A stretch of 64,000 nt of DNA from NCBI GenBank assembly GCA_025350685.1, contig JANXXK010000307.1, forward strand, positions 1-64,000, read 5' to 3'. The position numbers were made by a program, and so were the translations under genes. The DNA is from Alphaproteobacteria bacterium (GTDB lineage Bacteria; Pseudomonadota; Alphaproteobacteria; Caulobacterales; Caulobacteraceae). The notes below the pieces were generated by a model. The model worked only from the letters and a program-made list of their open reading frames with translations, was not told the origin of the DNA and did no database searches. Shown here one piece after another: positions 27,299 through 42,782 of this stretch; positions within the stretch are counted from its first letter, which is position 1, and each line of letters opens with the position of its first letter.

Positions 27299-28038
27299 GC
27301 GAAGAGCCGGATGCCAACTCCTCCCTGCCCACCCCGTCTTTAGTGTTGGGCGTCCTCGGCGGCATGGGGCCGGCGGCGACGCTGGAGTTCCTGCAGAACC
27401 TCCAGGCCTTCACCCCGGCCAAGGGCGACTCAGACCACATCCGCGTGCTGATGGACCTCAATCCCAACGTCCCCGACCGCAACATGACCGGCACGGCGGC
27501 CGGCGTGGTGCTGGCCGAGATGGCCGGCGCGCTGGCCGGCGCGGGCGCCCAGGTGCTGGCCATGCCCTGCAACACCGCCCACGCCCACGCCGACCTGATC
27601 CAGCGCGCCTCTGGCCTGCCGCTGATCGACCTGATCGGCGAAGGCGCCAAGGCCGCCCGCCAGTCGGGCGCGCGGCGCGTCGGCGTGCTCGGCACCAAGG
27701 GCGCGCTGCGTCTCTACCGCGAATACCTCGCCGCCCAGGCGCTCGGCCTCGTCAGCCTCGAGCCCGAGCGGCAGGAGGAGTTCATGGCCACGATCTACAA
27801 GATCAAGTCCGGCGACACGGGCCCGGCGGTGCGCAAGGAGATGGCCGGCTTCGCCATGGACCTGATCGGTGGCGGGGCGGAAGCCATCATCGCCGGCTGC
27901 ACCGAGGCGCCCCTGGTGATCGGCCCCGCCGACCTGAAGGTCGAGTTCATCGATCCCGGTGAGCTGCTCGCGCGGCGCTGTGTGGCGGTCTGCCTCGGCC
28001 TTGAATCCGCCCCTACTGTGCTGGACGCTCGAACCTGA
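27295..28038 (+). CDS. aspartate/glutamate racemase family protein
   Basis: [44 protein letters not shown]: paired catalytic Cys motifs; ATGA overlap with the upstream gene. Confidence 0.88.
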
Positions 28039-28769
28039 TGAGCTTGGCTGGGGGGCGGTCGATGCGGCGCTGGATTGTGGTTGTCGGGGTGAGCGGACTG
28101 GTGGCGGGCGCCCTTCTGGCGAGCATGGCGATCGGCCAGCCCGCCGGGCCGCAGAGGATTTTCACCCAGCTGTTCATCAGCCCCTGCGGCGAGCCCTATC
28201 GCGCCGGACCCGGCGATCCCTATCCGGTGGACCTGTGGTTCAAGCAGGCCGACCTCAACCACGACGGGGCGATCGACAAGGCCGAGTTCCGCGCCGACCA
28301 CATGGGCTTCTTTGACGCCCTCGACGCCGACGGCAACGGCGTCCTCGATAGCACTGAGATCAGCTTCTACGAGAACAAGGTGGCCCCCGACGTCCTGCAC
28401 AACGAACGCTTCGGCGCCCTGACCGGTGGCGGGCTGATCCGGGTTCAGCTCCAGAGGGGGCCCAACGCTGAGCAGAACGGAACGGCCCACGGCCCCTCCG
28501 GCCCGGCCCCCGACCTCGGCGCGCGCCGGCATGCCCCCGCCATCCCGCTGGAGGGCGCGGCGCCGTTCAATTTCCTGCGTGAGCCCGAACCGGTGCTGGC
28601 CGCCGACGCCAATATCGATGGCCGGGTCACCAAGGCGGAGTTCCTCGACGCCGCTGACCGCCGCTTCAAGCGCCTGGACAAGAACGGCGACGGCAAGCTG
28701 ACGCCGGAAGAACTGCCGATGACCGTCAGCCAGGCCGAAACCGCCGGCGGCAAGCGCGGCAAGCGCTAG
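28038..28769 (+). CDS. EF-hand domain protein with signal peptide
   Basis: DLNHDGAIDKAEF, DADGNGVLDSTEI, DANIDGRVTKAEF, DKNGDGKLTPEEL. Confidence 0.82.
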   Translation: MSLAGGRSMRRWIVVVGVSGLVAGALLASMAIGQPAGPQRIFTQLFISPCGEPYRAGPGDPYPVDLWFKQADLNHDGAIDKAEFRADHMGFFDALDADGNGVLDSTEISFYENKVAPDVLHNERFGALTGGGLIRVQLQRGPNAEQNGTAHGPSGPAPDLGARRHAPAIPLEGAAPFNFLREPEPVLAADANIDGRVTKAEFLDAADRRFKRLDKNGDGKLTPEELPMTVSQAETAGGKRGKR

Positions 28770-29882: not shown

Positions 29883-30824
29883 TCAGGCGATGACCGGCGA
29901 GGCGCTCCGCCGCCGGACCAGTTCACGGTGCAGGATGTAGACCCCGCTGGCGGCCACCACCAGCGCGCCGGCCAGCGTCGCGGCGTGCGGCAGCTCCCCC
30001 CATATCAGGAAGCCCAGGCCGGTGGCCCAGACCAGCTGGATGTAGTCGAACGGGGCCACGACGCCGACGGGAGCCACCCGCAGCGCCTCGGTGAGCAGCA
30101 GTTGCCCCACCCCGCCGACCAGCCCGCCGACCACCAGCAGGCTCAGGGTGAGGGCGTCGGGAACCACCCAATGGAATGCCGAGCCCACCAGCCCCAGGGC
30201 CGCACCGGCCAGGGTGAAATAGAAGACGATGGTCGGACCCTTCTCGGTGGCCATCTGGCGAATGGCGACCACCGCGCCGGCTGTCGAGATCGCCCCGCCC
30301 AGCGCCAGCGCCACGCCGATCAGGTTCATCTGCCCGGGCTCGGGCCGCACCATGATCAGCACGCCGATGAAGCCCACCACCACCGCGCCCCAGCGGTGCC
30401 AGCCGACCGCCTCGCGCAGGATCAGCGCGGACAGCGCGGTCATGAACAAGGGCGAGGCGAAGTTCAGCGCCGTGGCCTCGGTGAGCCTGAGGTGCTGCAG
30501 CGCCGAGAACCCGCAGGTCATGCCGATCACCCCGATGCCGCTACGCACCAGGTGGCCGACCGGCCGCTGGGTCCTGAGCACCCGAAAACCCGTCGTGCGC
30601 CAGACGTAGAGGAACAGCGGCACGAAGGCGAAGATGTTGCGGAAGGCGATGATCTCGAACACGGGCACGCCGTGCTGGCCGGTCCACTTCACAATCGCCG
30701 CGAGCACCGCCATGCAGGCCATGGCCGCCACCCGATAGGCGATGCCCAGCGCGTTGTGCTGCGGCGGCATGTCGAGGGCGGGGGGAGGCGAGGGGCTCAC
30801 GGCGGGCGGTTTGGGCAGGGTCAC
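29883..30824 (-). CDS. DMT/EamA family transporter
   Basis: Ten-TM-like hydrophobic protein; VKWTGQHGVPVFEIIAFRNIFAFVPLFLY, FASPLFMTALSALILREAVGWHRWGAVVVGFIGVLIMVRP. Confidence 0.87.
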   Translation of the reverse strand: MTLPKPPAVSPSPPPALDMPPQHNALGIAYRVAAMACMAVLAAIVKWTGQHGVPVFEIIAFRNIFAFVPLFLYVWRTTGFRVLRTQRPVGHLVRSGIGVIGMTCGFSALQHLRLTEATALNFASPLFMTALSALILREAVGWHRWGAVVVGFIGVLIMVRPEPGQMNLIGVALALGGAISTAGAVVAIRQMATEKGPTIVFYFTLAGAALGLVGSAFHWVVPDALTLSLLVVGGLVGGVGQLLLTEALRVAPVGVVAPFDYIQLVWATGLGFLIWGELPHAATLAGALVVAASGVYILHRELVRRRSASPVIA

Positions 30825-30849: not shown

Positions 30850-32751
30850 CTATTTTCCGTCGACCGAGAAGGCCAGCAGCACGTTGACGCCGTTGGAGCC
30901 GACCCCGGCGGCGCCGTTGTTGCCGCTGGTCACGAAGACCATCCCGTGGGCGATCGTTGGGCCCATGCCGTCGATGCCGCCGCCGGGCTGGCCCTTGATG
31001 CCATTGAGCGTGTCGTAGGTCTGGGCGGTGGTCGAATACGCCCAGACGATCTTGCCGGTCTTGGCGTCATAGGCGCGGAACCAGCCGTCCAGCGCGCCTT
31101 CGAACACCAAGCCCGGGATGATCGCCGGGGCCGCCGACTGCGCGCGCATGCAGGCCGAGGGCTTGGCCTTGTCGGCGCCGTAGTGGCAGGGCGCGGCCGG
31201 CGACGGCGTGCCCCACAGAATGGCGCCCGTGGCGGGGTTGAGGGCGTAGAGGCCGGACTTGGCCGCCCGTGCGCGCATGAACAGGGGGACCAGGTCGGAG
31301 ATCGGCACATAGACGGCCGCCTCGTCCGCGCCGATCCCCCATTCCACCCCGCCGAGCGCCGAGCCGACGCCCACCTGGGTCTTCCAGACGAGCGCGCCGT
31401 CGTCGGGGTTGACGCCATAGACGATGCCCGACTTCTGCCCGGCCACCAGCACCTGCTTGCCGCCCTTCAGCGTCATCAGGATGGGCGTTGCGCCGAAGTC
31501 GTAGTCCGGGCCCATCGGCGTCGGGCAATTGCCGGAGGCCGACTGCGGGCCGCAGCCCATGACGAAGTTGTCGTTCTGCGTCACCTGCCTCCGCCAGCGG
31601 ACCTTGCCGGTGGCGATCTCCAGCGCGACGATGGCGTCGTCGCCGCCGGTAGTGACGTCGGTGTAGCTGTCGCCGGTGACCACGTAGACGAGGCCCCGCT
31701 TCAGATCGATCGAAGGCGCCGCCCAGATCGCCGCCCCGGCCGGGCCGCTCACCTTCAGCCCGCTGTCCTTCTCGCGGACCACCCGGGTGGGCTCGTCGAT
31801 CATCGAGGTCTTCCACAAGAGCTTGCCGGTCTTCAGGTCCAGCGCCGCGATCGAGCCCCGGAAGCTGCAGCAGGCGTAGGCCTTGCTCATCGCAAAAGCC
31901 TCCTCGATCGAGGAGATCGGCACCAGCAGCTTGTCGCCGGCCACCACTGGCGCCCCGGTCAGCACCGAGGCGGTGTGGGTTTCGATCCGCGGCGTGCGCC
32001 AGATTTCCTTGCCGGTCTGCGCGTCGAAGGCGCGCACCAGCCGATCGCTCTGGCCGACCACGGTCAGCCAGCCCGAGGGCGAGATCGGCGACTTGATGAC
32101 CAGCGGCGTGGTGCGTGACACCAGATCGTCGACGCTCCAGTGGACGCAGCCGGTCTTGGCGTCCATCGCGTAGAACTTGCCCGAGCGGTTGGTGACGAAC
32201 AGCCAGTCACCGACCACCGTCGGCTGGCCGCCCCCGGTCATCGAGAACGACCACTTCAGCTTCAGCCGCGGCAGGTCGGCCGCCGTCAGGCCGGGCTTCT
32301 TCTGGAAGCGGCTGGAGCGGTCGTCGATGCCCATGCTCGCCCAGTCGCCGGGCGCGGCGCTGATCGGCGGGTTGGTCGCACACTTGGGGTCGGGCGCGCT
32401 GGGGCCCTGCACGGCCACCTGCGGCATCTCCGAGTCGTCGCCGCCGCGCGCCGCCGTCAGGAACAGCGCCACCGCATGGATGTCGCCCGCGCTCATGCCC
32501 TGGGCCATCGGCGCCATGACGCCACCGGTCAGCGCGCGCTCGATGTCGGCGGCCGGCCGCTGGGCCAGCGCGTCGCGGGTCGGGGCGCGCTCGATCGCCG
32601 GCTCATGGCAGCTCTTGCAGCGGGTCTTGAAGATCGAGGCGCCGGGCGACGCCTGGGCGTGCGCCTGGCCCGCGAGAGTCACGGCCGCGAGGCCGGCGAG
32701 AGCAAGGCTGGAAAGCCCAAATCGTGCAAACCGGGAACCAACTGAGCGCAT
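30850..32751 (-). CDS. PQQ-dependent beta-propeller dehydrogenase with cytochrome c domain (polyvinyl-alcohol dehydrogenase-like)
   Basis: Signal peptide; IFKTRCKSCHEPAIER heme c; repeated AxDxxTGKxxW blades; YACCSFRGSIAALDLKTGKLLWK vicinal Cys-Cys; GDSYTDV. Confidence 0.85.
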   Translation of the reverse strand: MRSVGSRFARFGLSSLALAGLAAVTLAGQAHAQASPGASIFKTRCKSCHEPAIERAPTRDALAQRPAADIERALTGGVMAPMAQGMSAGDIHAVALFLTAARGGDDSEMPQVAVQGPSAPDPKCATNPPISAAPGDWASMGIDDRSSRFQKKPGLTAADLPRLKLKWSFSMTGGGQPTVVGDWLFVTNRSGKFYAMDAKTGCVHWSVDDLVSRTTPLVIKSPISPSGWLTVVGQSDRLVRAFDAQTGKEIWRTPRIETHTASVLTGAPVVAGDKLLVPISSIEEAFAMSKAYACCSFRGSIAALDLKTGKLLWKTSMIDEPTRVVREKDSGLKVSGPAGAAIWAAPSIDLKRGLVYVVTGDSYTDVTTGGDDAIVALEIATGKVRWRRQVTQNDNFVMGCGPQSASGNCPTPMGPDYDFGATPILMTLKGGKQVLVAGQKSGIVYGVNPDDGALVWKTQVGVGSALGGVEWGIGADEAAVYVPISDLVPLFMRARAAKSGLYALNPATGAILWGTPSPAAPCHYGADKAKPSACMRAQSAAPAIIPGLVFEGALDGWFRAYDAKTGKIVWAYSTTAQTYDTLNGIKGQPGGGIDGMGPTIAHGMVFVTSGNNGAAGVGSNGVNVLLAFSVDGK

Positions 32752-32862
32752 ATCGAAACCCCCGTACCGCTTCTTCTTGTTCAGGCGGGCCGCACAATGC
32801 CCGCGAAAAAGGGCGCGGTCACCTGTCGGCGCCGTGCCCTTGTCGTCTTCGCAGAGGTCCCC

Positions 32863-34938
32863 TTAGCGGGAGGCCACAACCGCCGGCTTGGCGTCGGCCG
32901 GCGCGGCCGTCGGCTTGGCGTCCGCCGGCTTCTGCGGGCCGCGTCGCGGCATCAGCTTGGCCGCGTTGGCCAGCTCCGTCGCATCCAGCGCCCCGTCATG
33001 GTTGGTGTCGATCAGCGCGAAGTACTTCTTCAGCACCGAAGCCGGACTCTGCGGGCCGCCCTTCAGTTCGGAAAGCTGGATCTTGCCGTCCATGTTGTCG
33101 TCCAGCACGCCCATCATCAGGTTGGCCCCCAGCAGCTTCTCGTACTCGGGCGTCTGGTGGGTGACGGTCTCATCCACCCAGCGGTAGTGCAGGTAAGTGG
33201 CCATCATCTCGTCCGAGGTCTGCTCGCCCCAGAACACCGTCTTGTTGTGGTCGGCGTTGGCCGGGTTGCGCGCGGAGTTGTCGTAGGTCCACCGGGCGAT
33301 GATCTTCGAGCCCGCCGGCACCTTCAGCGGCGTCTTCAGGAAGTACTCGTACTGCCAGTTGAAGTCGTAGCGGGGCAGGGACAGCAGCTTCTCGGTCTTG
33401 CCGTTCGGGTAGAGGATCGAGACGTTGGTCGAGCTGCCGCGCTTATGGGCGTGCGGCGTGATCCCGTAGAGGATCGCGTCCTTCGGGAACTCGATGTAGC
33501 TGGTCTCCGGGTGGAATTCCTCGTTCGGCGGAATCTCGATCGAGAAGTCGAAAATCCCGAAGGTCCTGAGCACGTACTTCGGCTCCTCGCCCTTCTTGTA
33601 GAAGTAGAGGCCCATCTGGGTCTGCTCGGTCGTTGCCTTGCCGTAGGGCGTGTAGTGGTTCTGGAAGCCGACGCCGCCGGAGGCGGGCACCCAGACGCCG
33701 GTGCTGACCGGCTGGATGTTGGAGCCGCGGCCCGGGCCGTAGCCGCCCAGCGAAGCGCCCCACTGGCTTTCGTCGAAGTCCGCGCCCTGGTGATCGGCGT
33801 TCACGGTCCCCGAGAGGATGTGGTGCACCACCTGGCGGTCGGAAATGCGGAAGGTGGTCGCCTTCATCCAGCGGCCTTCCGGCATGGTCATCGCCACCAC
33901 CGGATGCTGATAGTCCATGATGCCGCTCGCCGCGATCTTCACCGCCGGAATGTCGAGGATGATGTCGGGCTTGCCGAGCGGCCAGTCCTTGGCCTGGAAG
34001 GCGATCTTCTTCAGCGGGTCGTCGCCCCCGCCGCGCGGAGCCCCGGCGTCGATCCAGTGGACCAGGGTCTTCATCTGCTCGGGCGTCAGGCGGTCGTCGT
34101 CCTGGAATGCGCCCACGGTCTCGTCGGCCAGGTAGGGCGGCATGCGGTGGGTGCGGATCACCTCGCGGATCATCGGCGAGAAGCCCTTGATCTGCTCATA
34201 GGTGTTGAGCGGCATCGGCCCGATCCCGCCCGGCTGGTGGCACGTGGCGCACTTGGCCTCGACGATCGGGGCGATGGTCTTGGCGTAGGAGATCTGCGCG
34301 AAGCTCGCGGCCTTGGCCCGCTCGGGGAAGGCGATCATCTGGCCTAGCGCCGGACGGGCGCTCAGCGCGACCTTCTGGCCGGCGACCAGCGCGTCGACGG
34401 CGGCTTTGGCCCAAGCTTCACCAGAAGGGCTGGCGACCGGGCCGCGGTAGGCGACGGTCCAGCCGCGCGGATCGATGACGATCACCTCGGCGGCGCGGGT
34501 CACCCGCAGCTCCTCGCCGACCAGCTGCTCGTAGTCGAACAGGATCGGCATCTCCAGGCCAGCGGCTTTGGCGTCAGCGATCACCGAGTCGCGCTTGTCG
34601 CCGATGCGGCTGTCGATGGCCATCATGTCCACGCCCTTGCCGGCGTAGGCGGCCTTCAGCGCCATCAGCGCCTTGGCGTCGGCGTGCAGCGTCGCATCGC
34701 CCGAGGCGTAGCTCACCAGCACAACCGCCTTGTCGTTCGAATGCCGATAGAGCTGGCGGGCCAGCAGATTCTGGTCGGCCAGCATGAAGTCATCGACCGT
34801 CGCCGGTCCCACCGACGGCGCGGACTGCGCGCTCGCCTGGGAAACCCCGTGACCGCCGCTGGCCAGCGCCAGCGCGCCGGCCGCGACCGCCAGCCCGGCC
34901 GCCGCAGCGACCCCGGCGATCTTGCGAGAAATGGTCAT
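32863..34938 (-). CDS. redoxin-like / cytochrome c-like / copper type II monooxygenase-like (PHM/DBH) / EF-hand fusion protein
   Basis: N-terminal thioredoxin-fold-like region without CxxC; CATCHQPGGIGPM heme site; VVHHIL, NHYTPYGK, PHAHKRG and TSDEMMATYLHYR resembling the Cu ligands of PHM/DBH; C-terminal DTNHDGALDATEL EF-hand. Confidence 0.72.
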   Translation of the reverse strand: MTISRKIAGVAAAAGLAVAAGALALASGGHGVSQASAQSAPSVGPATVDDFMLADQNLLARQLYRHSNDKAVVLVSYASGDATLHADAKALMALKAAYAGKGVDMMAIDSRIGDKRDSVIADAKAAGLEMPILFDYEQLVGEELRVTRAAEVIVIDPRGWTVAYRGPVASPSGEAWAKAAVDALVAGQKVALSARPALGQMIAFPERAKAASFAQISYAKTIAPIVEAKCATCHQPGGIGPMPLNTYEQIKGFSPMIREVIRTHRMPPYLADETVGAFQDDDRLTPEQMKTLVHWIDAGAPRGGGDDPLKKIAFQAKDWPLGKPDIILDIPAVKIAASGIMDYQHPVVAMTMPEGRWMKATTFRISDRQVVHHILSGTVNADHQGADFDESQWGASLGGYGPGRGSNIQPVSTGVWVPASGGVGFQNHYTPYGKATTEQTQMGLYFYKKGEEPKYVLRTFGIFDFSIEIPPNEEFHPETSYIEFPKDAILYGITPHAHKRGSSTNVSILYPNGKTEKLLSLPRYDFNWQYEYFLKTPLKVPAGSKIIARWTYDNSARNPANADHNKTVFWGEQTSDEMMATYLHYRWVDETVTHQTPEYEKLLGANLMMGVLDDNMDGKIQLSELKGGPQSPASVLKKYFALIDTNHDGALDATELANAAKLMPRRGPQKPADAKPTAAPADAKPAVVASR

Positions 34939-35138
34939 TCGTCGGTCCTCCAACCTGTCGTCGGCGCCAGCCCTTGGCGACACCGCTGCCCTATTCCGGG
35001 GCCCTCTGCGCGCAACCGGATCCTGGCGACGCGTTCCTGAAGGGTCATCGCCAACGCTGGTTGCCGTAAGGTACGGTGCCAGCCATAGTTGGCCCCAGTT
35101 ACGATATACAGTGGATCATAGTGGATTCGGCCCCCCAG

Positions 35139-35729
35139 ATGTCAATAGTTTCGGAGATCAAGGCGGCTGATGCGCGGGTGGTGCGCACCCGCGACGCCCT
35201 GCGCCTGGCGATGACCGAGCTGGCCGCCGAACTGCCGCTCGATGCGATCACCGTCCGCGCCATCGCCGCCCGCGCCGACGTCGGCTACGCCACCTTCTTC
35301 CGCCACTACCCGGACAAGGAAGCCCTGCTGGCCGACGTGGCCGACAAGCTGATCCGCGAATTCCTCGAACAGGCCGCGCCGCTGCTGCAGCAGCGCGACC
35401 GTCTGGGCGCCGCGCGCTCGATCTGCACCTTCGTCAATGGCCACCTGCCGATCTACCAGGCGCTGATCGCCGGCGGCTCGGGCGAGACGGTCCGCGCCGA
35501 GATGCTGCGCCAGACCATGGCCACCATGGCTGCGACCCGCCAGCGCAAGGCCGATGGGCCGATGGACGACCTGATCCTGTTCCACATGGTCTCGGCGATC
35601 CTCAATCTGCTCGCCTGGTGGCTGCGCAACCTCGACACGGTCGACGCCGACGCGATGGGCGAAATCATCGAGCGCACCGTGCTCACCCCCCTGAGCCAGC
35701 TGCGTCTGCAGCCGCCGGCCGGGCTCTGA
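35139..35729 (+). CDS. TetR/AcrR family transcriptional regulator
   Basis: RTRDALRLAMTELAAELPLDAITVRAIAARADVGYATFFRHYPDKEALLADVADKLI HTH; divergent from the fusion gene. Confidence 0.88.
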   Translation: MSIVSEIKAADARVVRTRDALRLAMTELAAELPLDAITVRAIAARADVGYATFFRHYPDKEALLADVADKLIREFLEQAAPLLQQRDRLGAARSICTFVNGHLPIYQALIAGGSGETVRAEMLRQTMATMAATRQRKADGPMDDLILFHMVSAILNLLAWWLRNLDTVDADAMGEIIERTVLTPLSQLRLQPPAGL

Positions 35730-35837
35730 TCTCCTCTCCCCTCTACGTGGCGCGCGGGGGCGAGGAGATATTTTGCGGTCCCCTGTCGGAGGCGGCTAGG
35801 TTGGGCCGTCCTAGGCTCCATGAGGAACCGCGCTCCC

Positions 35838-36233
35838 ATGCTTTACGCCGTGCTCTGCTACAATTCCGAAGACGCCGTCTTCTCGTGGACCGCCGAACAG
35901 GACGCCAAGGTCATGGCCGATCTCGGCCAGGTCCAGCAACGCTGGTCGCACAAGCTCGGCCCGACCGCGCGCCTGATGCCGACCACCGCGGCCACCACCC
36001 TGCGCAAGGGCGATCCCCCGCTGGTCATCGACGGCCCCTTCGCCGAGACCAAGGAGCAGCTCTTGGGCTTCTACTTGGTCAACTGCGACGACCTGGATGA
36101 GGTGCTGACCTTCTGCAAGGAACTGGGCGCGGCGAACCCGGGCGGCGCCTATGAGGTCCGCCCGCTGCACTTCTTCTCCAACGGCGTCCTGCCGGCCGAC
36201 GCGGTCTCAGCCCGGGTTTCGGAAAGCGCCTAG
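35838..36233 (+). CDS. YCII-related (DGPF-type) protein
   Basis: MLYAVLCYNSEDAVFSWTAEQDAKVMADL...VIDGPFAETKEQLLGFYLVNCDDLDEVLTF. Confidence 0.87.
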   Translation: MLYAVLCYNSEDAVFSWTAEQDAKVMADLGQVQQRWSHKLGPTARLMPTTAATTLRKGDPPLVIDGPFAETKEQLLGFYLVNCDDLDEVLTFCKELGAANPGGAYEVRPLHFFSNGVLPADAVSARVSESA

Positions 36234-36246
36234 TGGAGCGCCTGAG

Positions 36247-37503
36247 ATGAGCGACCTCGCCTGGATCGATGCGGCCATCACCTCGGCCCGTCCCCAGGCG
36301 GTGGGCGCCCTGCTGCGCTACTTCCGCGACCTCGACACGGCCGAGGAGGCCTTTCAGGAAGCCTGCCTGCGGGCGCTCCGCACCTGGCCGGAGAAAGGCC
36401 CGCCGCGCGACGCCGCGTCCTGGCTGATCATGGTCGGGCGCAACGCCGCGCTGGACGGCAAGCGCAAGACCTCGCGCCAGGCCGAGCTGCCACCGGAGGA
36501 CCAGATTTCCGACGTCGAGGACGTCGAGACGCCCATGGCCGAGCGGCTCGACGGCGCCCACTACCGCGACGACATCCTGCGGCTGATGTTCATCTGCTGC
36601 CATCCGGACCTGCCGGCCACCCAGCAGATCGCGCTCGCCCTTCGCATCGTCTCCGGCCTCACGGTCAAACAGATCGCCCGGGTGTTCCTGGTCGGCGAGG
36701 CGGCGATGGAACAGCGGATCACTCGCGCCAAGGCCCGCATCGCCAAGGCCGAGGTGGCCTTCGAAGCCCCCGGTCCGGTGGAGCGGTCCGAACGCGTGGC
36801 GGCCGTCGCCCACATGGTCTACCTGGTGTTCACCGAGGGCTACACGGCCGGCTGGGAGACCGCACAGACTCGCGCGCCGCTCTGCGAGGAGGCGATCCGC
36901 CTGTCGCGCCTGGTGCTGCGTCTGTTCCAGGCCGAACCTGAGATCATGGGGCTGACCGCGCTGCTGCTGCTGCAGTATTCCCGCGCCGCCGCCCGCTTCG
37001 ACCCGCAAGGCGCCGCAGTCCTGCTCGACGACCAGGACCGCGGCCGCTGGGACCGCGAGGCGATCGGCGAGGGCCTGGCGCTGATCGACAAGGCCATGCG
37101 GCATCGTCGCCCAGGACCTTACCAGGTGCAGGCCGCCATCGCCGCCCTGCATGCCCGCGCCGCGCGCCCGGAGGACACCGACTGGGCCAATATCGAGCAG
37201 CTCTACGCCGCACTGGAGGTCATGACGCCGTCGCCGGTGGTGACGCTGAACCGCGCGGTGGCGGTCTCCAAGGCGCGCGGGCCCGCCGAAGCCCTGGCGA
37301 TGATCGAGCCGCTGGAGACGCCGCTCGCCGGCTACTTCTACTGGCACGGCGCGCGCGGCGCCTTCCTCCTCCAGCTCGACCGCAAGGCCGAGGCCCGCGA
37401 GGCCTTCAACCGCGCCATCGCGCTCGCCAACACCGCCGCCGAAGCCGCCCACATCCGTGGCCAGATCGACCGGCTGCAGGCCGATGTGACGGCCGCCGGC
37501 TAG
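36247..37503 (+). CDS. ECF RNA polymerase sigma factor with C-terminal TPR-like extension (ECF42-like)
   Basis: DTAEEAFQEACLRALRTWPEKGPPRDAASWLIMVGRNAALDGKRK; LPATQQIALALRIVSGLTVKQIARVFLVGEAAMEQRITRAKARI; preceded by YCII gene. Confidence 0.88.
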   Translation: MSDLAWIDAAITSARPQAVGALLRYFRDLDTAEEAFQEACLRALRTWPEKGPPRDAASWLIMVGRNAALDGKRKTSRQAELPPEDQISDVEDVETPMAERLDGAHYRDDILRLMFICCHPDLPATQQIALALRIVSGLTVKQIARVFLVGEAAMEQRITRAKARIAKAEVAFEAPGPVERSERVAAVAHMVYLVFTEGYTAGWETAQTRAPLCEEAIRLSRLVLRLFQAEPEIMGLTALLLLQYSRAAARFDPQGAAVLLDDQDRGRWDREAIGEGLALIDKAMRHRRPGPYQVQAAIAALHARAARPEDTDWANIEQLYAALEVMTPSPVVTLNRAVAVSKARGPAEALAMIEPLETPLAGYFYWHGARGAFLLQLDRKAEAREAFNRAIALANTAAEAAHIRGQIDRLQADVTAAG

Positions 37504-40451: not shown

Positions 40452-40859
40452 TTAGTCGCCGATCCGCGCCGTGGTCGTCCAGGCCGCGGCGACCATCTCC
40501 TCCAGCACGCCGGCGTCCACGTCGGCGAGCTTGTTGATGTAGAGGCAACCCGTGCCCGTGCCGTGCTTGCCGAGCCGGGCCAGGCGATCCTCCCAGCCCT
40601 CGGCGTGCTTGATGTAGAGCACCAGCGAGGCCTTGCGCGGCGAAAAGCCCATGGCCAGCATCTTGCCCGTCTTGCCGCCCGCCAGCTCATATTCGCGCAG
40701 GCCGAAACCGACGATGCTCGGCCCCCACATCTTCGGCTCCAGCCCGGAGACCCGGCGCATCAGCGCGCAGAGCACCGCGCCGTCCGCGGGCTTCGGCGAG
40801 CCGGCGATGAACCCGTCCACGTCGACGCCGGTCGCCTTGGTCTTGGCTTCATAGGCCAT
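40452..40859 (-). CDS. DUF1801 (YdhG-like) domain protein
   Basis: PKMWGPSIVGFGLREYELAGGKTGKMLAMGFSPRKASLVLYI. Confidence 0.8.
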   Translation of the reverse strand: MAYEAKTKATGVDVDGFIAGSPKPADGAVLCALMRRVSGLEPKMWGPSIVGFGLREYELAGGKTGKMLAMGFSPRKASLVLYIKHAEGWEDRLARLGKHGTGTGCLYINKLADVDAGVLEEMVAAAWTTTARIGD

Positions 40860-40874
40860 GACCGAAAGCCTGCC

Positions 40875-42782
40875 CTATTTCCCGTCGACCGAGAAGGCCA
40901 GCAGCACATTGTCCGGCCCCGACGAGCCCGACGCGCCGTTGAACCCGGCCATCAGGAAGGCCATGCCGCCAGCGAAGGCGATGCCGTTGGAATCCAGGTT
41001 GCCGCCGCGCTGGCGCCTCACCCCGTTGACCGTCTCGTAGGTTCGCCCGGCGGTGTCGTAGTCCCAGATCATCTCGCCGGTCTTGGCCTTGAACGCGCGC
41101 ACATGGCCGTCCTGGTTGACCCCATAGACCACCCCATTGGCGATCGACGACGGGCCGGAATAGCCGTTGCCGCACCGACCCTCGAAGCTGCACTTGGCGG
41201 GCTCCGGCGCGCGGTGGCGCCAGATCAGCGCCCCGTCGGTGAGCCTGAGCGCCGACAGCGTCGGCATCCCCCTGTCGGCGACGCCCACGTAGAGGTTGTC
41301 GTCATCCGCCGCCATGCCCCACTCGACGCCGCCCAGTGCGCTGCCCTTGCCGATGCGGGTCTGCCAGATGAACGATCCGTCGTCCGGGTTGAGCCCGTAG
41401 ACCTGGCCCGACTTCTGCCCGGCCAGCAGGATGTCTTTTCTACCCTTCAGGTGCTTGAGGATCGGCGAGGAGCCGAAGTCGAAGTCCGGCCCGTTCGGCG
41501 TCGGGCAGTTCACGCCAGGTCTTTGGGGAGGACAACCGACCAGGAAGTGGTCCAGCTCGGTCATCTGGTGCGACCACTTGATCTTACCTGTTTTCAGATC
41601 CATCGCCTCGACTGCGTCGGAGTTGTCCTCCGGCACGTCGGTGTAGCTGTCGCCCGTCGCCACGTAGAGCACGCCGCGCTTCGGATCGATGGTCGGCGAC
41701 GACCAGATCGCCGCCCCGGCCGGCCCGTACATCTGGGTCCCCGCCGCGTTCTTCTTGAACGGCGCCGGCGTCGTTGGGATCGCATAGCTCTTCCACTTGA
41801 TCTTGCCGGTGGCGATGTCGAGCGCCGCCACGGCGCCGCGCTGCTTGCAGCACTCATAGGCCGCCAGCCCCGCCACGCCCTCCTCGAACGAGGACAGCGG
41901 CACATAGAGCGTGTCGCCCCAAAGGCTGGGCGCCCCGGTCAGGATGCCGCGCCCGCCGCTATCGATGTTGGTGACCCACAGCTCCTTGCCGCTGTTGGCG
42001 TCCACCGCCACCTGGTTGCGACCCATGTCGCCGAAATAGGCCGCCCAACCGGACGCCGCCTTGGGGTTCTTGCCCACCGAGACCGTCACCCGCACCGAGC
42101 CGCGCGCCTTGTAGGCCCAGGCGACGCAGCCGGTCTGCTTGTCCAGCGCATAGACCTGGCCGGAGGATGAGGTGGCGAACACCCGGTTGCCCACCACGCT
42201 CGGCTGGCCGTAGCGCCCGCCCTGGTAGGCGAAGGCCCACTTCACCTTCAGCTTGGCCACATTGGCCGCGGTGATCGTCGTCGAGGTCGCCACTCGGCTG
42301 TTCTGCTTGTCCGGGCTCCAGCCGTTCCACGAGGGGCCGGCCGGGTTGAACTTGGCGCCCGCCGGGCAGCTGTTCTTGGCCTCGCCCGCCAGGTCGAACT
42401 TGGCGTCCGGCGCCTGGCCGGTGACGAACACCGCGACCGCGTCGATGTCGTCGCTCGACAGGCCGGCCGCCATCGGCTGCATCTTGCCGGTCTTCAGCGC
42501 GTCGATGATCACATTGGGGAACTGGGCGGCGAGCTCGGCGCGCGAGGGCGCATGCTCCACCGCGGGCATATGGCAGGACTTGCAGCGTTGGCCGAAGATC
42601 TCCTCGCCATGCGCGGCCATCTTGGCCATGGCCGCCCGCTGCAGGGTGCGGGCTGCGAAAGCGTCCCGAATGGCAGGGTCCGCTGGCGCTGGCGCCGGCG
42701 GCGCCTGGCCGAAGGCCTGATGGGTCATCAGGGCGCCGGCGACGGCGGCGGCCACGATGGCCGCGCTCCAAGCTCTCTTCAT
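40875..42782 (-). CDS. second PQQ-dependent beta-propeller dehydrogenase with cytochrome c domain
   Basis: IFGQRCKSCHMPAVEHAPSR heme c; YECCKQRGAVAALDIATGKIKWK; GDSYTDVPEDNSDAVEAMDLKTGKIKW; same VLLAFSVDGK C-terminus as the 30850-32751 protein. Confidence 0.85.
   Translation of the reverse strand: MKRAWSAAIVAAAVAGALMTHQAFGQAPPAPAPADPAIRDAFAARTLQRAAMAKMAAHGEEIFGQRCKSCHMPAVEHAPSRAELAAQFPNVIIDALKTGKMQPMAAGLSSDDIDAVAVFVTGQAPDAKFDLAGEAKNSCPAGAKFNPAGPSWNGWSPDKQNSRVATSTTITAANVAKLKVKWAFAYQGGRYGQPSVVGNRVFATSSSGQVYALDKQTGCVAWAYKARGSVRVTVSVGKNPKAASGWAAYFGDMGRNQVAVDANSGKELWVTNIDSGGRGILTGAPSLWGDTLYVPLSSFEEGVAGLAAYECCKQRGAVAALDIATGKIKWKSYAIPTTPAPFKKNAAGTQMYGPAGAAIWSSPTIDPKRGVLYVATGDSYTDVPEDNSDAVEAMDLKTGKIKWSHQMTELDHFLVGCPPQRPGVNCPTPNGPDFDFGSSPILKHLKGRKDILLAGQKSGQVYGLNPDDGSFIWQTRIGKGSALGGVEWGMAADDDNLYVGVADRGMPTLSALRLTDGALIWRHRAPEPAKCSFEGRCGNGYSGPSSIANGVVYGVNQDGHVRAFKAKTGEMIWDYDTAGRTYETVNGVRRQRGGNLDSNGIAFAGGMAFLMAGFNGASGSSGPDNVLLAFSVDGK

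Follow-up and report, generated by a model that had tools for sequence, protein, structure and literature searches.

The locus at positions 30850-35729 of a 64,000-nt stretch of contig JANXXK010000307.1, from a member of the genus Phenylobacterium in the Caulobacteraceae (this stretch is hereafter the window, and strands are given relative to it), encodes a predicted exported copper protein with a fused c-type cytochrome and the predicted fold of peptidylglycine alpha-hydroxylating monooxygenase (PHM) and dopamine beta-hydroxylase (DBH), a predicted exported quinohaemoprotein dehydrogenase, and a divergent TetR-family regulator. We propose, with a probability of about 0.45, that the three form a module for periplasmic oxidation under TetR repression, with a cytochrome-fed copper monooxygenase operating alongside an alcohol-oxidising dehydrogenase. 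Every domain involved is already known; what appears new is their arrangement in a redoxin-cytochrome-PHM-EF-hand protein that has a quinohaemoprotein as partner and a TetR operator at its gene. A preliminary description made from the DNA letters had suggested an inducible system in which a hydroxylation product feeds the dehydrogenase; as a whole, this interpretation is partly supported. The redoxin-like domain, the EF-hands, the TetR operator and a second cytochrome c-pyrroloquinoline quinone (PQQ) dehydrogenase at 40875-42782(-) are additions to it.

When recomputed, the open reading frames, their strands, the 111-bp distance between the two minus-strand genes and the divergent TetR gene at 35139 were found to be as originally described (Table 1). 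The ATG of the copper gene at 34938 has a GGAGG site, and a longer GTG frame is not needed. Hydrophobic signal sequences at the N-termini of both minus-strand products predict their export. Full-length homologues of the window's open reading frames are present in dozens of other genomes, which rules out chance frames.

The copper protein runs from its signal sequence through a redoxin-like domain, a cytochrome c and a PHM-type copper domain to a pair of EF-hands. The previously noticed fusion of haem c and copper monooxygenase is borne out by Pfam, in which both Cytochrom_C (22.0 bits, cut-off 21.3) and Cu2_monoox_C (PF03712; 36.2 bits, gathering cut-off 23) exceed their cut-offs, while AhpC-TSA scores 20.1 bits, under its cut-off of 26. 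Across 18 family members, matches at E<=0.01 were obtained for AhpC-TSA in 17/18 and for Cu2_monoox_C in 14/18. A fold comparison with PHM and DBH had been set beforehand as a check, and the copper protein passed it. Searched with Foldseek, the AlphaFold model (predicted local distance difference test score, pLDDT, of 80.5) has PHM (3mll, E 8e-14) and DBH (4zel, E 1.5e-13) as its first PDB matches; the best 29 PDB matches are all PHM or DBH entries, and thioredoxin-like proteins match the N-terminal domain. The TM-score against PHM is moderate (~0.6 of target) and the root-mean-square deviation is high, which would fit two jelly rolls modelled at another angle than in PHM.

All six expected copper ligands (three His at CuH; two His and a Met at CuM) are invariant in 52/52 homologues, the most distant of which are ~31% identical. 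They were equated with PHM residues by order, spacing and fold rather than by direct residue alignment to PHM; the CuM residues of PHM are named in PMC6123673, and H107 and H172 are named as CuH residues in the titles of matched PDB entries. When the PDB was searched with a profile built from the copper-domain sequences, no PHM was retrieved, and therefore the link to PHM rests on the fold, PF03712 and the ligand pattern. In PHM, the peptide carboxylate is anchored by Arg240, Asn316 and Tyr318. The corresponding positions by spacing are T494, A580 and Y582, the first two of which differ from PHM; conservation of Y582 does not extend beyond the protein's close clade. Because most family members have Thr/Phe and Ala/Tyr/Phe at the positions equivalent by spacing to Arg240 and Asn316, the copper protein is probably not a peptide-amidating PHM.

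The GCP motif of the redoxin-like domain (34693-34701) reads GDA in the window's clade, with Cys changed to Asp, and the Cys is kept in several distant paralogues. Since this cysteine is gone, the domain has seemingly lost its redox centre and is unlikely to work as a catalytic redoxin. The haem c motif is followed by two invariant methionines, M256 and M266, as possible axial haem ligands. Cys230 and Cys233 of this motif are the only cysteines of the protein, which is thus without disulphides.

The neighbouring gene had been described as encoding an exported PQQ/cytochrome c dehydrogenase, and our searches agree: the product has a CxxCH motif and strong Pfam matches to PQQ domains, and the best 30 Foldseek matches of its model are PQQ dehydrogenases, the closest being PQQ alcohol dehydrogenases. 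It scores under every NCBIfam PQQ dehydrogenase cut-off. In a profile alignment with 1kb0 and 1kv9, E284 is the metal-type Glu and D418 the Asp at the WD position of quinohaemoprotein alcohol dehydrogenases, both of which are kept. The site residues are invariant in 15 relatives, and pqqC is found in the genome; the enzyme likely uses PQQ.

The regulator matches TetR_N with 38.8 bits (Pfam, cut-off 24) and has only one copy in the genome at E<=1e-15. Its orthologues, 67-77% identical, are divergent from the copper gene in ~17 other loci. Alignment of 17 intergenic regions between TetR and the copper gene yields a single near-unvarying block, TTAYGATMYACWGTRKATCRTAA, an imperfect palindrome and putative TetR operator. 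The window's copy, TTACGATATACAGTGGATCATAG, is the sole site in the genome at <=2 mismatches (control matches 0; matches expected in the shuffled window, 0). Intact TetR-carrying copper loci among those fetched have the operator exactly, or with 1 mismatch in G109, and fetched loci without TetR (e.g. L007, L013, L017-L021) are also without the operator. The block begins in the TATGAT of a promoter-like sequence of the copper gene and so overlaps it; this TTGACA/TATGAT pair has a 19-nt spacer and was not listed by a generic promoter scan covering spacers of 16-18 nt only. A putative operator thus lies over the divergent promoter, the arrangement looked for in a TetR-regulated divergent operon, and it supports the earlier suggestion of an inducible system.

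Similar operators accompany related regulators elsewhere. In G029 (genus g12), near-identical operators lie ahead of the gene for a PQQ alcohol dehydrogenase of 819 aa and of one for a related TetR (40%), the latter beside P450, Rieske, 3-ketosteroid-dehydrogenase-like and CoA-transferase genes; in G092, a 35% TetR homologue with a similar site adjoins what, on reading its sequence, appears to be an RND efflux operon. This TetR subfamily therefore seems to keep its operator while changing targets, and a lipophilic inducer is a reasonable guess. The single G029 cluster hints weakly at a steroid-type inducer: among family models, those of 3-ketosteroid dehydrogenases come closest to its flavin adenine dinucleotide (FAD) protein, which scores under their cut-offs, and the RND efflux context in G092 counters the idea.

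For neighbourhood comparisons, genes were called by a simple GC-by-codon-position heuristic, by which small genes may be missed. The copper protein was found in 21/150 genomes of the family, in 1 to 7 copies each, with six genes or fragments in the window's own genome; in a phylum-wide sample the copper-domain profile matched 3/299 genomes, 2 of the 3 from the window's own genus. The window and the loci L008, L009, L011, L014, L015/L088, L028, L029 and L032/L087 all carry TetR, copper gene and dehydrogenase together; their order is kept in ~10 Phenylobacterium loci, and L007 has the copper gene/dehydrogenase pair without TetR. The outer neighbours in L014, L029 and L088 differ from those in the window, and such changing flanks around a kept trio point to selection on the module. 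In another genus, L089 carries a 63% identical dehydrogenase of the same subfamily just upstream of, and co-directional with, a 51%-identical copper homologue, i.e. in reversed order. The L089 copper protein belongs to a distant clade and its dehydrogenase branches near the window's group, so that the locus reads as an independent pairing. An obligatory coupling of the two genes is ruled out by the many copper homologues without TetR and dehydrogenase; judged by gene neighbourhood, the pair is therefore a recurrent module, not an obligatory one.

From these features we infer repressor binding, the inducer, catalysis, the electron route and a link between the product of one enzyme and the substrate of the other. 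TetR would sit on the palindrome overlapping the copper-gene promoter until released by an inducer, probably lipophilic. The copper protein would then act as a two-copper monooxygenase of the PHM/DBH type, hydroxylating a C-H bond of its substrate. Its fused c-type cytochrome would take the place of ascorbate as the electron-entry domain, a natural replacement because ascorbate is, to our knowledge, not a usual reductant in the bacterial periplasm; the redoxin-like domain, having lost its cysteine, could serve as a scaffold or docking domain. The cytochrome c-PQQ dehydrogenase would oxidise an alcohol, which might plausibly be what the copper enzyme makes by hydroxylation, and its cytochrome domain would hand the electrons on to the pool of periplasmic cytochromes; this pool would in turn re-reduce the cytochrome of the copper protein. 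A PHM-type enzyme would need two electrons per O2 and an alcohol dehydrogenase would yield two per alcohol, so that the electron cycle would be closed if the alcohol were the product of the copper enzyme. This boldest form of the proposal, a self-contained, ascorbate-free PHM-type system that draws its two electrons through the fused cytochrome from a PQQ dehydrogenase oxidising its own product, and thus turns periplasmic C-H into C=O on O2 with a closed electron cycle, we regard as doubtful.

Several observations weigh against the module. In the dehydrogenase, D361 stands where the same profile alignment places the metal-ligand Asn of classical enzymes, and the vicinal C294-C295 pair occupies a different place in the sequence. 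PF01082, the model of the N-terminal copper domain, did not match the copper protein, not even when the fragment was searched by itself at E<=1. A hairpin followed by a T-run lies in the 111-bp gap, a possible attenuator or partial terminator that a strict terminator scan did not list; expression of the dehydrogenase gene may therefore be weaker than that of the copper gene, or in part separate from it. Folding this gap in nine orthologues besides the window gave strong hairpins in most of those having a long gap; hairpins of unlike sequence recur there in L008, L009, L011, L028 and L032. Co-conservation of the two genes, on which the preliminary description had staked its proposal, stands for the ~10 Phenylobacterium loci and the one reversed pair and fails for most copper homologues, own paralogues included, which have no adjacent dehydrogenase. 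Conversely, the dehydrogenase subfamily occurs in genomes without a detected copper protein (e.g. G020, G046, G071, G091). Nearly as likely as the module is that two independent periplasmic oxidoreductases answer to one TetR and the same xenobiotic or lipophilic signal, exchanging no electrons and sharing no product. Such independence would account for the dehydrogenase subfamily living apart from the copper gene, for the copper gene and TetR without dehydrogenase in L010, L016 and L023-L025, and for the TetR relatives with similar operators that adjoin other genes (the PQQ dehydrogenase and the P450/Rieske/3-ketosteroid-dehydrogenase-like/CoA-transferase cluster of G029; RND efflux in G092). 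It sits less easily with a pair that is retained while its flanks change, and with the related dehydrogenase that, in another genus, has a copper protein of a different lineage as its neighbour.

The copper protein might instead use its PHM fold for redox or metal handling, as a copper/haem sensor, an oxidase or a peroxide-dependent enzyme. In the literature searched, with most subscription journals outside coverage, no characterised bacterial PHM was found; the window's clade has lost the redoxin Cys, disulphides are absent (the sole two Cys being the haem pair), and the 1 to 7 paralogues per genome have varied neighbours. The strict invariance of all six ligands at both copper sites, the CuM Met included, nevertheless favours a PHM-type reaction, and we judge a function other than monooxygenation improbable. 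Far less credible still is a system for degrading a polymer like polyvinyl alcohol (PVA), the direction in which the comparison with PVA dehydrogenase (PVA-DH) in the preliminary description points. PVA-DH has an N-terminal cytochrome c followed by a PQQ propeller, and the window's dehydrogenase has the same domain order. A relative of it (42.5% match) is encoded on a plasmid of the PVA degrader Sphingopyxis sp. 113P3. However, the pva operon of this strain, comprising PVA dehydrogenase, oxidised-PVA hydrolase and cytochrome c, is reported on the chromosome (PMC4611681), whereas the gene context at the plasmid locus is different: MFS, acyl-CoA ligase and SDR genes are present there, and none is annotated as an oxidised-PVA hydrolase. 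We therefore dropped the plasmid match as a PVA-DH reference, and the collections searched yielded no other PVA-DH sequence to serve as one. Like the pva operon, in which a periplasmic PQQ dehydrogenase is coupled to cytochrome c (PMC4611681), the window locus encodes a predicted enzyme of this kind, but the operon is without a copper monooxygenase, and no oxidised-PVA hydrolase was recognised beside the window genes.

Returning to the TetR-repressed module, its parts have relatives among known enzymes. With PHM and DBH (Cu type II ascorbate-dependent monooxygenases, PF01082 + PF03712) the copper protein shares the predicted double jelly-roll, the order and spacing of the six copper ligands, predicted secretion and PF03712; it differs in carrying a redoxin-like domain, a cytochrome c and EF-hands on the same chain, in having no PF01082 match and in being without disulphides, whereas the catalytic core of PHM/DBH is disulphide-bonded. 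PHM is described as widespread in eukaryotes in a structural comparison (PMC8812541). The dehydrogenase resembles both the N-terminal-cytochrome quinohaemoprotein dehydrogenases (PVA-dehydrogenase type) and the type II quinohaemoprotein alcohol dehydrogenases in combining a cytochrome c with a PQQ propeller and in conserving the catalytic-type Asp and the metal-type Glu, but its cytochrome is N-terminal, in contrast to that of type II enzymes, and it departs from quinohaemoprotein dehydrogenases in the change of Asn to Asp, the moved vicinal Cys pair and scores under the NCBIfam cut-offs. The proposed electron supply also has a parallel. The c-type cytochrome domain CjX183 of Cbp2D reduces bacterial lytic polysaccharide monooxygenases (LPMOs; PMC8981238), and the PQQ-cytochrome pyranose dehydrogenase CcPDH (AA12) drives fungal LPMOs (PMC5960967). 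In these systems too, a quinone dehydrogenase and/or a cytochrome domain feeds electrons to a separate copper monooxygenase; the copper enzyme there is an LPMO, however, and CcPDH has haem b, so the likeness is a functional analogy, not homology.

Table 1. Features of the locus, its surroundings and related loci (window positions unless a locus is named)
Feature	Position	Strand	Details
Quinohaemoprotein dehydrogenase gene; predicted exported product	30850-32751	(-)	633 aa; N-terminal cytochrome c (C45-x2-C48-H49) + PQQ beta-propeller
Putative PQQ/metal-site residues E284, D361, D418; vicinal C294-C295	31498-31902	(-)	profile alignment to 1kb0, 1kv9
Gap, copper gene/dehydrogenase gene	32752-32862		111 bp
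Hairpin then TTTTT in the gap	32806-32839	(-)	fold of gap; possible attenuator/partial terminator
Copper-protein gene; predicted exported redoxin-like/cytochrome c/PHM-type copper/EF-hand product	32863-34938	(-)	691 aa; ATG start 34938, GGAGG upstream
C-terminal EF-hand pair	32953-33117	(-)	aa ~608-662; EF-hand_5 34.5 bits, cut-off 25.9
PHM-type double jelly-roll copper domain	33154-33987	(-)	aa 318-595; Foldseek + PF03712
CuM ligand M578	33205-33207	(-)	= PHM M314; 52/52 homologues
CuM ligands H496-A-H498	33445-33453	(-)	= PHM H242, H244; 52/52 homologues
CuH ligand H428	33655-33657	(-)	= PHM H172; 52/52 homologues
CuH ligand pair H372-H373	33820-33825	(-)	= PHM H107, H108; 52/52 homologues
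Haem c motif C230-A-T-C233-H234	34237-34251	(-)	kept in 51/51 homologues covering it
Redoxin-like (AhpC/TSA) domain	34339-34806	(-)	aa ~45-200
Putative TetR operator, imperfect palindrome TTACGATATACAGTGGATCATAG	35099-35121	.	family consensus TTAYGATMYACWGTRKATCRTAA
Promoter-like elements, copper gene	35115-35145	(-)	TTGACA 35145-35140, 19-nt spacer, TATGAT 35120-35115; read from alignment
TetR-family regulator gene	35139-35729	(+)	196 aa; ATG start 35139; divergent from copper gene
EamA-family transporter	29883-30824	(-)	downstream neighbour, kept in several relatives
Second cytochrome c-PQQ dehydrogenase	40875-42782	(-)	47% identical to 30850-32751 dehydrogenase
Operator-bearing TetR relatives	L128 8559, L127 8263 (G029); L143 9316 (G092)

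Several close relatives have a second PQQ dehydrogenase (42-45%) downstream and a third upstream, and the window's second cytochrome c-PQQ dehydrogenase is the orthologue of this upstream third one. It is followed by a DUF1801 gene at 40452-40859 (-); in relatives this pair lies <= ~6 kb from the copper gene, beside an S15-peptidase/esterase-like gene. On the other side of TetR, a YCII-domain gene and an ECF-type sigma factor (DUF6596) occupy 35820-37503 (+), a pair that several relatives also keep next to TetR. Near the locus, 28038-28769 (+) encodes an EF-hand protein that apparently has a signal sequence; the copper protein likewise ends in EF-hands.

Other copper loci have companions of their own. 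A secreted ~370-aa protein with the motif GQPDLSGxWTN or similar replaces the dehydrogenase downstream in L010 (12063-13139) and L016 (10076-11209), and a related one lies near the copper gene in L014 (8052-9152); no family match was found for the L016 protein in Pfam and NCBIfam or for the L014 relative in Pfam. Arrays of two to five DUF6152-like genes are divergent to copper homologues in L026 (8544-9688) and L027 (4796-9743). In Phenylobacterium sp. J426 (L035, 10001-11837) the copper homologue is split over two frames, by a frameshift or a sequencing error.

Work on PHM and DBH treats them as ascorbate-requiring enzymes of animals, and it has long been debated how electrons are supplied to and shared between their distant copper sites. 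A bacterial PHM-type member that has a covalent cytochrome and comes with a defined regulator and a candidate partner dehydrogenase would be a genetically tractable system. It would offer a natural electron donor for study and a route to a new pathway of periplasmic oxidation, in a family with up to seven copies of the copper protein per genome.

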